DNA of 64,000 bases from an uncultured Lentisphaerota bacterium (GTDB taxonomy: Bacteria > Verrucomicrobiota > Kiritimatiellia > CAIQIC01): NCBI GenBank assembly GCA_903889245.1, contig CAISWQ010000018.1, positions 1 through 64,000 of the forward strand, written 5' to 3'. Below, piece by piece: positions 1,558-42,858 of this stretch. The position numbers and the translations under genes are program-made. Every line of letters starts with the position of its first letter. Position 1 is the stretch's first letter. The notes beneath the pieces are model-generated. The model was given only the letters and a program-made list of their open reading frames with translations. It did no database searches and was not told where the DNA came from.

Positions 1558-2355
1558 ATGAAGTTTTCCATCGTCACGCCGAACTATAACGGCGCCCGCT
1601 TCCTCGAAGCCACGCTGGCGAGCGTCGCCGCGCAGCGCGCGCCGGGCCTGGCGGTGGAGCACTGGATCGTGGATGGCGGCAGCACCGATGGCTCACCCGG
1701 CATCATCCAGCGCTATCTTGGCCCCGAAACTTTTTTGATCGCGGAGCGCGATGCCGGGCCGGCCGAGGCGATCAACAAGGGGCTGCGGCGCGTCACCGGC
1801 GATTTCGTCGCCTGGCTGAATGCCGATGATCTTTATGAACCCGGCGCGCTGGCGCGCGCCGCCGCCACGCTCGCGGCGCACCCGCGGGCCGCGTTCGCGT
1901 TCGGCCGCTGTCGCATCGTGGATGAGCGCGGCGCGGAAATCCGGCGCGGCATCACACGCTTCAAGGAACTTTTTTCCCCGCTCTCCTCGCGTTTTACTTT
2001 CCAGTGTCTCAACTATATCTCGCAGCCGGCGATGTTCTTCCGGCGCGCGGCGCTGGACCGGGCGGGTGGGCTGCGCGGGGATCTCACGGCGGCGTGGGAC
2101 TATGAGTTCATGCTGCGGCTGTGGCGGCAGGGTGGGGCGGTGCGCATCCCGGGCGGCCCGCTGGCCGACTTCCGCTGGCATCCCGGCTCGATCAGCGGCC
2201 GCGCCTATGCGCAGCAGTTCCGCGAGGAGTGGCAGGTGGCCGCCGCCGACGCCGGCCGCTGCTCGCCGCAGGCGCTGATTCATCTCGGCGTGCGTTTCGG
2301 CATCGTCGGCACCTACGCGTTTATGGCTGCTGTGCGCCGGAGTTCAGCGCGATGA
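1558..2355 (+). CDS. Glycosyltransferase family 2
   Basis: This 265-residue protein has a GT-A fold signature. The N-terminus KFSIVTPNYNGARFLEATLAS is the nucleotide-sugar binding start. VDGGSTDGS (about residues 39-47) follows, then WLNADD (about 86-91), which holds the metal-binding acidic residues. GT2 enzymes transfer a sugar from a nucleotide donor to glycans or lipids at the cytoplasmic membrane face. The substrate cannot be read from sequence. Its stop overlaps the start of the next glycosyltransferase gene by 4 bp (ATGA), which points to translational coupling and a shared pathway in surface polysaccharide assembly. Confidence 0.9.
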   Translation: MKFSIVTPNYNGARFLEATLASVAAQRAPGLAVEHWIVDGGSTDGSPGIIQRYLGPETFLIAERDAGPAEAINKGLRRVTGDFVAWLNADDLYEPGALARAAATLAAHPRAAFAFGRCRIVDERGAEIRRGITRFKELFSPLSSRFTFQCLNYISQPAMFFRRAALDRAGGLRGDLTAAWDYEFMLRLWRQGGAVRIPGGPLADFRWHPGSISGRAYAQQFREEWQVAAADAGRCSPQALIHLGVRFGIVGTYAFMAAVRRSSAR

Positions 2356-3491
2356 GGGTCGGCGTCAATGCGTTGTTCCTGATTCCCGGCGAGGTCGGTG
2401 GCTCGGAGACCTATCTGATCGAGACGTTGCGCGCGCTGGCGGCGACGCAGCCCGACCTCGAACTGGTGCTCTTCACCAACCTGGAGTGCGACGCCTGCCT
2501 CTGCGAGCGCCTGGATGAATTCCCCCAGGTAAGCTTGCAAATGCTGCCCGTGCGCGCGCGCAACCGTGTGGCCCGCGTGTGGTGCGAACAGACCCGGCTG
2601 CCGTCTCTGGCCCGCGCGGCGGGAGTGCAGGTGCTCTGGTCGCCCGGTTACGTGGCGCCGTTGCGCGCCCCTTGCCCGCAGGTGGCCTCGATCCTGGACC
2701 TGCAATACCTGAGCCATCCTGCCGACCTGGCGTGGCCGGCGTGGCTGGCCATGCACACGCTGATCATGCAGACCGCGCAACGCTGCGCCCATCTGCTGAC
2801 GCTCTCGGAGTTTTCGCAACGCGAGATCATCCGCGAGGCGGGTGTCGCGCCGGAGAAGATCACGCCGACGCTGCTCGCGGCCGCGCCGGAATTTTTTGCG
2901 CCGTCCGCCGCCGGGGCCGTCGCCGAACTGCGCCGCGACGTGCTGGGCTTCGAGGGCCCGTTCCTTTTGTGCGTGGCCCACACCTATCCGCACAAGAACG
3001 TGCATCGTTTGCTGGAGGCGGTGGGTTTGCTCGCTGATCTGCCGCACCGGCTCGTGCTCGTGGGCCGGCCGCAGCGCGGCGAGCCGGCGGTACAGGCGGC
3101 GCTGGCGCGCTGGCCCGATCCAAAACGCTGCGTCCGGCTGGAGCGCGTGACGCGCGCCGACCTGGTGACGCTCTATCAGGCGGCGGACGCGTTCGCGTTT
3201 CCGTCGCTCTACGAAGGTTTCGGGCTGCCCGTCTTGGAGGCGATGGCCGCGGGCGCGCCGGTCGTCGCCCTGCGCCGCGCCGCGGTGCCGGAGGTCGGCG
3301 GCGACGCCCTCGCCTACGTCGAGCGCGACGACGCCGCCGAGCTGGCCGCCCGCCTGCGCGAGACGCTGGCCTGGAGCCCGGCCGAGCGGGCCGCGCGCTG
3401 CGCCGCCGCCCGCGCCCGCGCCGCGACTTTTTCGTGGGAACGCACCGCCGCTGCGGTCGCCGACGTCCTCCGCGCCACCGCCGCCCGCTGA
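2352..3491 (+). CDS. Glycosyltransferase family 4 (GT-B)
   Basis: This is a 379-residue GT-B enzyme. The ATG at 2352 overlaps the preceding stop and gives the canonical N-terminus MRVGVNALFLIPGEVGGSE, with a glycine-rich acceptor-site loop. The C-terminal half carries the GT4 donor-site signature FPSLYEGFGLPVLEAMAAG with the EX7E glutamates, at about residues 282-300. A mannosyl-, glucosyl- or rhamnosyl-transferase acting on a surface polysaccharide is likely, in concert with the GT2 just upstream. The donor is unknown. The stop codon abuts a cluster of palindromic repeats. Confidence 0.9.
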   Translation: MRVGVNALFLIPGEVGGSETYLIETLRALAATQPDLELVLFTNLECDACLCERLDEFPQVSLQMLPVRARNRVARVWCEQTRLPSLARAAGVQVLWSPGYVAPLRAPCPQVASILDLQYLSHPADLAWPAWLAMHTLIMQTAQRCAHLLTLSEFSQREIIREAGVAPEKITPTLLAAAPEFFAPSAAGAVAELRRDVLGFEGPFLLCVAHTYPHKNVHRLLEAVGLLADLPHRLVLVGRPQRGEPAVQAALARWPDPKRCVRLERVTRADLVTLYQAADAFAFPSLYEGFGLPVLEAMAAGAPVVALRRAAVPEVGGDALAYVERDDAAELAARLRETLAWSPAERAARCAAARARAATFSWERTAAAVADVLRATAAR

Positions 3492-3492
3492 C

Positions 3493-3542
3493 TTTTCCAA
3501 GGCTTGGGAAAAGCACTGCGGGCGTTTCCAAGCCTTGGAAAA
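3493..3542. repeat. Palindrome cluster, 2 copies (TTTTCCAAG-S-CTTGGAAAA family)
   Basis: There are two copies with centres at 3502 and 3533, 31 bp apart. The first begins 1 base after the GT4 stop codon. The copies lie between convergent genes and directly precede the 21-bp array. Confidence 0.9.
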
Positions 3543-3561
3543 CCAGTTCTCCCGTTCCGCC

Positions 3562-3745
3562 GGGGACATCCCCCGTACGACGGGGGACATCCCCCACGCC
3601 ACCGGGGACATCCTTTTTTCTGTGGGGGACATCCCCCACGCCATGGGGGACAGCCCCCGCGCCGCCGGGGACGTCCTTTTTCTCACGGGGGACATCCCCC
3701 GTGCGACGGGGGACGTCCTTTTTTGGGCGGGGGACATCCCCCACG
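3562..3745. repeat. 21-bp phased tandem array, 9 units
   Basis: The core GGGGAC(A/G)(T/G)CC starts at 3562, 3583, 3604, 3625, 3646, 3667, 3688, 3709 and 3730, exactly 21 bp apart each time. Six of the units extend to the near-palindrome GGGGACATCCCC or its variant GGGGACAGCCCC; three end in CCTTTTT instead. The spacer bases between cores vary. Because 21 is a multiple of three, open frames run through the array on both strands, but their products are only repeats and no gene is called. The array lies between convergent genes. Confidence 0.9.
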
Positions 3746-3800
3746 GAACGGGAGAAACCACTTTTTGCGGTTTTCCTAGGGAAATCGCGAAAAAGACGTT

Positions 3801-5153
3801 CTAGATTTCCGGATATTTCCAATCGCCGCGGTAGGCGCGGCGCAGCAGCTTGTTCGCCTCGGCGTCGCCTACGCAGTCATACTTGGCGGCGTCCCAGTTG
3901 ACGCTGCGGCCAAGCTTGAGGCTCAACATGCCCAGTAGCGCGGCGTTGGTGGAGAGGTGGAGGTCCTCGATGTCGCTGACCGGCCGGCGGCCGGTGCGGA
4001 TGCAGTCGAGGAAATCGGCCCACAGCTCGCGGATGTTCTGGCCGTCGGGCTGGCCGAGCTGGGCGTCCTCGTGGAGCGTCGGCTGGCTGTCCTTCGCCGG
4101 GTAGAACGTCCAACCCTTCTGCCAGCCAAGGTGCAGCGTGCCTTCGGTGCCGAAGAAGTAGCAGCCCACATTCTCGCCCTTCTCGGCGTTGTGGCCGGCG
4201 AACTGGCGGTGCTCCCACGTCACGTCGAAGTCGCGGAACTTGTACTGCGCGAGCTGGTGGTCGGGCGCGTCGCTGGTCTGTTCCTTGTCGTTGAGGATGG
4301 GCGGGCCCTTGATCGGGCGGCCGCCGAGGCTGGAGACGAGCGTCGGCGCCTGCTCGCCGGTGATCCACATGATCTGGTCGAGCCAGTGGATACCCCAGTC
4401 GCCGAGCGTGCCGTTGGCGTAATCGAGGAACATCCGGAAGCCGCGCGGGTGGATGCCGCTGCCCCACGGGTTCTGCGGGTTGCCGTTGAACGGGCGCTTG
4501 GGCGCGGGGCCGCACCAGAAATCCCAATCCAGCTCCGGCGGCGGCTGCGTGTTCGGCTTCGGCTGCTCCGGCCCGCCGCCGCCATAGTTGACGAACGCGC
4601 GGACCATGCCGAGCTTGCCGAGCTTGCCGGCGCGGATGAACTCGCGCGCGCTGATGTTGTGCGGCGAAATGCGCCGGTGCGTGCCCACCTGCACGACGCG
4701 GCCCGCCGCCCGCGCGGCGCGGACCATCGCGCGGCCCTCGAGGATCGTGTGGCTGATCGGCTTCTCCACATAGACGTGCGCGCCGGCCCGCACCGCGGCG
4801 ATCGTGATCAGCGGATGCCAGTGATCGGGCGTGGCGACGATGCAAAGCTCCGGTTTGATTTTTTCCAGCATCTCGCGGTAATCGCGGAAAGGCTTCGGCT
4901 CGTCGCGCGTCTCCTTGCGGACGCGCGCCTCGGTGCGCTGGAGGAAGCGGCTATCCACATCGCACAGCGCGACGATCTCGCACGCGCCGCTGGCCATCGC
5001 CGCGCCGAGGATGTTGCCGCCCCACCAGCCGCAGCCGACGAGCGCGGTGCGGTAACGCTTGGCCGGCGCGTCCGCGCCGACGAGGCGGAAGGCGGACGTG
5101 GAAAGCACGGCGGCGGCGCCCGACTGCAAGAAACGACGACGATCCATGTTCAT
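3801..5153 (-). CDS. Gfo/Idh/MocA-family oxidoreductase, Tat-exported
   Basis: This 450-residue protein was started at the ATG giving MNMDRRRFLQSGAAAVLSTS, a twin-arginine signal peptide (RRRFLQ). The in-frame DNA upstream is the rsmD region in antisense and is not protein-like. A Rossmann NAD(P)-binding motif (ALVGCGWWGG) comes at about residue 40. The family motif EKPISHTILEG at about residue 126 contains the conserved EKP lysine. Such Tat-exported oxidoreductases are very numerous in PVC bacteria and are thought to act on sugars or inositols in the periplasm. The substrate is unknown. The gene stands alone, convergent with the GT4 gene and divergent from rsmD. Confidence 0.9.
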   Translation of the reverse strand: MNMDRRRFLQSGAAAVLSTSAFRLVGADAPAKRYRTALVGCGWWGGNILGAAMASGACEIVALCDVDSRFLQRTEARVRKETRDEPKPFRDYREMLEKIKPELCIVATPDHWHPLITIAAVRAGAHVYVEKPISHTILEGRAMVRAARAAGRVVQVGTHRRISPHNISAREFIRAGKLGKLGMVRAFVNYGGGGPEQPKPNTQPPPELDWDFWCGPAPKRPFNGNPQNPWGSGIHPRGFRMFLDYANGTLGDWGIHWLDQIMWITGEQAPTLVSSLGGRPIKGPPILNDKEQTSDAPDHQLAQYKFRDFDVTWEHRQFAGHNAEKGENVGCYFFGTEGTLHLGWQKGWTFYPAKDSQPTLHEDAQLGQPDGQNIRELWADFLDCIRTGRRPVSDIEDLHLSTNAALLGMLSLKLGRSVNWDAAKYDCVGDAEANKLLRRAYRGDWKYPEI

Positions 5154-5213
5154 GTGCGTGTCTCCGGTGGCTGCGACGCGGCGGATGCTAGGCGGCGGCC
5201 GCCGCGCTGTCAA

Positions 5214-9341: not shown

Positions 9342-9426
9342 GTTTCCAAGGTTGGGAAAAGCGGAGCCCCGCTTTTTCCAAGCCTTGGAAAAATTCAGCC
9401 ACAGTTTTCCAAGGCTTGGAAAAAAC
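9342..9426. repeat. Palindrome cluster, 3 copies
   Basis: Centres lie at 9351, 9383 and 9414, spaced 32 and 31 bp. The first copy begins 4 bases after the fabH stop and the last ends 7 bases before the toxin-like gene, so the cluster fills the whole fabH-toxin gap. Confidence 0.9.
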
Positions 9427-18414: not shown

Positions 18415-18552
18415 GTTCCTCATCCTAATCTTAATCGTAATCGTAACTCGTAATCGTAACTCCTGCTCGTAATCCCTCTTCCCGGCCGGCCGGGAGATTA
18501 GGATTAGGAGTTACGATTACGATTAAGATGGGGAGTTACGATTAGGATGAGG
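18415..18552. repeat. GATTACG-type imperfect inverted repeat
   Basis: Left and right arms are built from short units: AATCGTAATCGTAACT-like on the left and GAGTTACGATTACGATTAAG-like on the right, separated by TTCCCGGCCGGCCGGGA near 18480. The composition is AT-rich relative to its surroundings. The right arm runs into the 3' end of tsaE, whose stop lies at 18523. A weak related trace (GATTACGAGCTAAG) occurs at 5962. Confidence 0.8.
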
Positions 18553-18981
18553 AGTTTCAAGCGTGATGATCCGTTCGGTCAGATCCTTCCCGACTTCAAA
18601 GTGCAGGTGCCAGGTTTCCGGCGGCAGAATTTCGGTGGCGCGCTCGGCCCACTCGATCACGGTGATGCCGTCGCCCTTGAAATATTCCTCGAGGCCGAGG
18701 CCGAAGGCGTCATCCGCGTCGCGGATGCGGTAGAGGTCGGCGTGGTAGAGCGGCGGCGTGCTGGGGTATTCGTGGATCAGCACGAAGGTCGGACTGTTGA
18801 CGGCGTGCTGGACGCCGAGCGCGGCGGCGAGGCCCTGCACGAAGCAGGTCTTGCCCGCGCCGAGATCGCCGTGCAGCGCGAGCACCGCGCCGGGCTTGAG
18901 TTCGCGCAACAGTTCCGTCGCCAGCCGCCGGGTTTCCTCGGGGCTGTGCGTGACCACGGTCTTTTTTTTCTCCACGCTCAT
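18523..18981 (-). CDS. tsaE: tRNA t6A37 synthesis ATPase TsaE
   Basis: This 152-residue P-loop ATPase works with TsaB and TsaD. Walker [18 protein letters not shown] lies at about residues 35-51, followed by the family motif [11 protein letters not shown] and [20 protein letters not shown] is also typical. An earlier in-frame start at 19017 would place a strong hairpin inside the coding region, so the ATG at 18981 is preferred. The last residues ([11 protein letters not shown]) are encoded by an intergenic-type repeat, suggesting the original stop was lost or displaced. Confidence 0.9.
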
Positions 18982-24716: not shown

Positions 24717-24828
24717 ATTCCAAGGCTTGGAAAATTTCGGCCGGCCTTTTCCAAGGCCCGGAAAAGCAGACGCCGAAACTTTCCAACCCTTGGGAAAACA
24801 ACCGGTTCCGGTTTCCAAGGCCTGAAAA
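24717..24828. repeat. Palindrome cluster, 4 copies
   Basis: Centres lie at 24725, 24756, 24788 and 24820 (spacings 31, 32 and 32), between the DinG-like helicase gene and nusA. The cluster ends 6 bases from the helicase stop codon. Confidence 0.9.
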
Positions 24829-42810: not shown

Positions 42811-42858
42811 TTTTCCAAGCCTTGGAAAAAAGTTCCGCGGATTTTCCAAGGCTTGGAA
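42811..42858. repeat. Palindrome cluster, 2 copies
   Basis: Centres lie at 42820 (C) and 42851 (G), 31 bp apart. The first copy begins 1 base after the cydB stop. The two centres are complementary, so the copies could also pair with each other. Confidence 0.92.

Follow-up and report, generated by a model that had tools for sequence, protein, structure and literature searches.

Our analysis concerns an array of short palindromic sites in a stretch of 64,000 nucleotides (hereafter the window) of contig CAISWQ010000018.1, from an uncultured Lentisphaerota bacterium (assembly GCA_903889245.1). Nine GGGGAC cores, starting at 3562, 3583, 3604, 3625, 3646, 3667, 3688, 3709 and 3730 (3562 + 21i), follow one another at a pitch of exactly 21 bp, or two helical turns, with zero indels across the nine units. 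The initial annotation had placed nine cores at this spacing, six in units with a C tail and three in units with a T tail; every position is exact to the base, and both tail classes are found in the unit sequences. We tentatively read the locus as a noncoding, helically phased array of candidate dyad protein-binding sites, with a probability of about 0.4. The strongest single fact is the combination of a conserved 10-bp core, a drifted filler and the absence of indels.

Core conservation and filler drift

Non-consensus letters occupy 3/90 positions in core columns 0–9 against 38/99 in filler columns 10–20 (Fisher p ~9e-10; p ~1e-4 with columns permuted). The homologous triplets U1-3 and U4-6, compared alone so that the C and T unit types do not count as evidence, differ at 2/30 core and 12/33 filler positions (p = 0.006), and the contrast therefore does not come solely from the unit types. 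Both comparisons bear out the earlier claim of a conserved motif with diverged filler. Outside the array, GGGGAC occurs in the window five times on the + strand and six times on the - strand. Tandem Repeats Finder reports a period of 21 (8 copies, 64% match) and higher-order periods of 42 and 63 bp (unit order C C T, C C T, C T C); its growth was thus in part by duplication of blocks of two to three units. To the initial account we add degenerate units at both edges and a perfect 13-bp inverted repeat whose arms bracket the array, each placed 1–2 bases outside it; an equally good inverted pair flanks 2/5000 random window intervals.

A translated repeat of seven residues is very improbable. The unit length is divisible by 3 and five of the six reading frames run through the array without a stop, but such open frames come free with a 21-bp repeat whose unit holds no stop. 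Substitutions are spread 12/15/14 across codon positions with no third-position excess, the variation forms a contiguous 11-bp block, the syntenic intergene of relatives lacks the array, and the long frames of the minus strand pass in antisense through the upstream glycosyltransferase gene. On codon positions and synteny we reject a coding repeat; a translated frame, named in the initial annotation as evidence that would count against protein sites, is not what the substitutions indicate, and the array is noncoding.

The mechanism we propose starts from the approximately nine dyad sites (eleven with the worn edges) of the form GGGGACRTCC(CC), head to tail and exactly two helical turns apart. 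With a protein dimer bound at each of them, all dimers would lie on the same DNA face and could polymerize cooperatively to form a single nucleoprotein filament or clamp. The glycosyltransferase (+) and oxidoreductase (-) genes are convergent, with the array between their 3' ends, and such a filament at their junction might separate the convergent transcripts as a roadblock or insulator, or serve in chromosome architecture. Protein binding, one-face occupancy and any such effect are what we infer from this arrangement. A true binding array of this kind would be unusually long and exactly phased for a natural operator-like array, and would lie at a meeting point of convergent transcripts, not at a promoter. 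The genome also holds hundreds to thousands of helix-phased dyads, and in that case the link between helical phasing and a cooperative chromosome-bound protein would become testable in a little-studied group.

Table 1. Array components and adjacent features, in window coordinates
Feature	Position	Strand	Description
Glycosyltransferase family 4 gene	2343..3491	+	Pfam PF13692/PF00534; ends upstream of array
TTCCAAGSCTTGGAA palindrome pair	3493..3542	.	31-bp pitch; separate genome-wide family; diverged pair kept in G003
Degenerate edge unit 0	3541..3561	+	AACCAGTTCTCCCGTTCCGCC; read by eye; ~11/21 letters match unit 1
Inverted repeat, left arm	3548..3560	+	TTCTCCCGTTCCG; perfect, 13 bp
Array	3562..3750	+	nine 21-bp units, each core GGGGACRTCC + 11-bp filler
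C-type units (1, 2, 4, 5, 7, 9)	starts 3562, 3583, 3625, 3646, 3688, 3730	+	GGGGACA[T/G]CCCCC
T-type units (3, 6, 8)	starts 3604, 3667, 3709	+	GGGGAC[A/G]TCCTTTTT
Terminator-like junction U2-U3	3585..3619	+	weak hairpin, -10.4 kcal/mol, then T6
Terminator-like junction U5-U6	3648..3681	+	hairpin, -15.0 kcal/mol, then T5
Terminator-like junction U7-U8	3690..3724	+	strong hairpin, -21.0 kcal/mol, then T6
Inverted repeat, right arm	3744..3756	+	CGGAACGGGAGAA; perfect, 13 bp
Degenerate edge unit 10	3751..3771	+	T-type, GGAGAAACCACTTTTTGCGGT; read by eye; ~14/21 letters match unit 8
Gfo/Idh/MocA oxidoreductase gene	3801..5192	-	start approximate; Pfam PF01408/PF19051; orthologues found

Protein sites, inert repeat or RNA element

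The initial proposal of protein sites on one DNA face stands in part. It draws support from the conserved core, drifted filler, lack of indels and noncoding character of the array, and from two other palindrome arrays of the genome whose spacings are whole numbers of helical turns (42 bp, twice 21; 31/32, 53 and 63/64 bp). Several observations weigh against it. The array occurs once in the genome; the check for a second copy came out negative, leaving a single locus. GGGGACNNNCCCC sites elsewhere in the genome do not exceed the control count, which would leave a regulator with a single target locus; in the ~0.81 Mb (15%) of the genome that was sampled for other arrays, GGGGACRTCC occurs outside the array 4 times, counting both strands. 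Two genus mates (G002, G003) keep the convergent pair, with an oxidoreductase 84–85% identical, but their syntenic intergenes were found to hold no array, which is therefore lineage-specific; it was not found in the remaining genus and family genomes examined either. A Limisphaerales metagenome-assembled genome (MAG; L122) carries six 18-bp palindromes at mixed 21/22 bp, and palindrome arrays found in the phylum without a preset pitch repeat at 15, 23/25, 36, 36 and ~40 bp. The array comes without a candidate binding protein, and a protein model predicts neither the 13-bp outer arms nor strong RNA folding; given the perfect outer repeat and the strength with which RNA of either strand folds, a structural reading (RNA or cruciform) remains viable.

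The orthologous intergenes carry palindromes of their own. That of G003 holds a TTCC..GGAA palindrome pair and a GTAG-headed inverted repeat resembling repetitive extragenic palindromic (REP) elements, and that of G002 holds different short palindromes. The array sits where palindromes accumulate, and the orthologous genes manage without it.

Lineage specificity and confinement to one locus would also be expected of an inert palindromic minisatellite. Such a repeat would have arisen in the lineage when slippage or template switching amplified a short GC-rich quasi-palindrome; it would have no host function, and its pitch would equal its unit length. The visible 42/63-bp higher-order duplication, another private array elsewhere in the genome and the variation of pitch among genomes point the same way. 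We nevertheless consider this origin rather unlikely, since uniform neutral drift should strike core and filler equally, contrary to what is observed, and since the filler has diverged strongly without a single indel in nine units. If inert, the array would illustrate cleanly a palindromic minisatellite with a mutation-resistant core and a filler open to change, and that contrast would still call for explanation.

A further rival is an RNA-level 3'-end element. Here the C/T junctions would act as intrinsic terminators of the glycosyltransferase operon on the + strand, and the array as a whole would fold into several hairpins at the 3' end of either convergent transcript. Three junctions do have the layout of an intrinsic terminator, a hairpin followed by T5–T6 downstream of a same-strand gene, and the T-runs of the array are confined to the + strand. 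T-type units 6 and 8, and no others, have G in place of A, which creates a GTCC able to pair with the GGAC before it. The whole array folds far beyond shuffles as RNA of the two strands (z -8.7 and -11.1), the outer inverted arms are perfect, and other 3' ends in the genome have intrinsic terminators. However, the junction hairpins have z-scores of -1.3 (U2-U3), -1.3 (U5-U6) and -4.1 (U7-U8) against dinucleotide shuffles, so that the last alone is unusual. Stem pairing in the + strand filler amounts to 17/27 pairs where 17.0 are expected, with no compensatory signal. Because the filler pairs no better than when shuffled, inter-unit RNA stems do not explain core conservation, and we reject them as its cause. 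The minus strand lacks a U-tract, the arrays of a Verrucomicrobiaceae MAG (L012) and of a second locus in this genome (L197), both described below, lie between codirectional genes without such T-tracts, and an RNA element has no need of an exact 21-bp pitch. We regard this reading as unlikely; Rfam gave sub-threshold chance matches alone and no known RNA family.

Helix-phased palindromes elsewhere in the genome

The protein-site reading is backed by other whole-turn palindrome arrays of the genome, including the precedent of the TTCC family. The palindrome pair phased at 31 bp that was reported to adjoin the array is real, at 3497 and 3528. It belongs to the TTCCAAGSCTTGGAA family, whose sites come in runs of 2–6 and number 429 in 809 kb of genome sequence. 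Neighboring sites are spaced by 31 (155 cases), 32 (76), 53 (3) or 63/64 bp (8; 9 for 62–64), corresponding to 3, 5 and 6 helical turns. The centre bases of paired sites (GC 76, CC 63, GG 52, CG 38) combine independently, and the spacers differ; paired palindromes are therefore not kept mutually complementary. Such independence is what phased protein sites would predict, not a hairpin between the two palindromes, and the family looks like a large set of helix-phased putative protein sites. It favors convergent intergenes (17/43) over divergent ones (7/50), counts that use rough gene calls with some genes misassigned. The palindromes also occur at 9344-9421, 24718-24827 and 42813-42858 of the window and genome-wide, and at lower density in the genus mates. 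The TTCCAAGSCTTGGAA sequence was not found in the literature searched.

NrdR box pairs offer the nearest likeness to this 31/32-bp family, in that both are paired dyads. NrdR binding depends on helix phase, its boxes usually lying 15–16 bp apart and, in some species, a further helix turn apart (PMC12051234). NrdR boxes differ in their sequence, in their few sites per genome and in their place at the promoters of ribonucleotide reductase operons.

The sampled ~0.81 Mb holds one other array of the kind studied here (L197, G000:C34:2689-3300), a 42-bp repeat in 14 copies. Its unit consists of two 21-bp halves with palindromes GGTGTCACC and CCGTTGATCCAACGG centred 21 bp apart, and it is private to its own locus. 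Some half-units have one additional A ahead of GGTGT and one C fewer behind it, so that their length stays 21. It lies downstream of an open reading frame read by eye as a Vsr-like endonuclease. As to whether such arrays sit between convergent genes, the array at 3562 does, and L197 and L012 do not.

Similar arrays and known systems

In L012 the array runs to 27 units with a pitch of exactly 21 bp and stands upstream of a gene. Its filler is conserved and its palindrome centre varies, and extra filler bases are offset by the loss of G in the next run, so that the pitch is kept. In Coriobacteriaceae RUG12554 (L296-L301, G408), a single-palindrome query, GGGGACWGNCCCC, gave 216 forward matches; among the matches listed, 15/16 neighboring pairs lie 21 bp apart and one 22. 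The evidence on pitch in this genome comes from that query, and a scan for GGGGAC at 21 bp, which returned many 7-mer and coding repeats, was not used. Like the window array, many of its clusters are bracketed by outer inverted arms; these measure 7–17 bp and differ in sequence between loci. The length changes that keep the pitch in L012 and the 15/16 Coriobacteriaceae pairs count for the protein-site reading. The GGGGACWGNCCCC palindrome of Stieleria has 7/13 spacings at 21 bp and most others at 29–32. In both groups these palindromes resemble the array as GGGGAC dyads at a 21-bp pitch; they differ in being dispersed, often as inverted A/T-centred pairs, whereas the array is a single locus of head-to-tail units. 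Because other arrays in the phylum have other pitches, 21 bp is recurring but not universal, and we reject it as the general pitch of GGGG/CCCC palindrome arrays there. In RUG12554 the GGGGACWGTCCCC palindromes have >200 matches, at a 21-bp pitch.

A wider claim, which we hold to be quite unlikely, is that palindromes repeated head to tail at a fixed distance of two helical turns, and frequently bracketed by outer inverted arms, would form a new kind of chromosomal element that arises independently, with different sequences, in unrelated bacteria. In the present genome the element would belong to a broader system of helix-phased dyads (21, 31/32, 42, 53 and 63 bp) recognized by polymerizing DNA-binding proteins.

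Among known systems, ArgR operators (ARG boxes) share with the array dyads at a 21-bp pitch. They differ in having two boxes where the array has nine, in their unrelated sequence and in lying in control regions, whereas the array lies between convergent genes. ArgR boxes are AT-rich. An ArgR operator consists of 18-bp dyads 3 bp apart, hence the 21-bp pitch, and is protected on one helix face (PMC6640053). Among genome-wide dyads, other operators of one regulon, as ArgR would have, were not found above control. The second likeness is to the iterons of plasmids, head-to-tail direct repeats of ~19–22 bp bound on one face. Neither 72,556 plasmids nor 50,697 phages yielded a match to the array, on which ground we reject plasmid or phage iterons, and no replication initiator was found among the tested neighbor genes (glycosyltransferases, oxidoreductase, DUF7544, methyltransferase). 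Judged by analogy, the array would work most like ArgR operators or iterons; identity with either is unsupported, as there is no regulon, no initiator and no plasmid or phage relative.

REP elements and the mosaics that they form (BIMEs, bacterial interspersed mosaic elements) are palindromes tagged with GTAG and CGTC (PMC3733652). They resemble the array as intergenic, clustering palindromes with outer inverted arms, but the array is not dispersed, carries neither a GTAG nor a CGTC tag in its unit sequences and has no nearby RAYT gene. The genome has two Y1_Tnp genes, neither with GGGGAC palindromes within 1.5 kb, and none were found at the relatives' RAYT loci checked. As a single copy with no RAYT nearby, the array is rejected as a dispersed REP or RAYT-linked repeat. 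A CRISPR array is rejected as well, since the units combine a 10-bp core with 11 bp of mutually related filler, in contrast to repeats of 23–50 bp with unique spacers. The sequences GGGGACATCCCC and TTCCAAGGCTTGGAA were not found in a relevant context in the literature searched.

Other repeats came to light in these searches. A contig of IMG/VR with three spaced matches is unrelated and looks like a coding repeat. Locus L190 (G238:C35, 2315-2592), in another genome of the phylum, has a 42-bp period in which a 21-bp unit bearing a T-run alternates with a palindromic one (GGAGACGTGTCTCC), and it may be coding. The source genome has a CRISPR-like array of ~17 copies of 36-bp repeats, CTTTGAATCCATCTTCGCGAGCGTCAGCGGTTCCAAG, at 156-1397 of L239 (G000:C4). 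At 18422-18556 of the window, an inverted pair of short tandem repeats, TAATCGTAACTC and GAGTTACGATTA, flanks the GC-rich palindrome CCCGGCCGGCCGGG.
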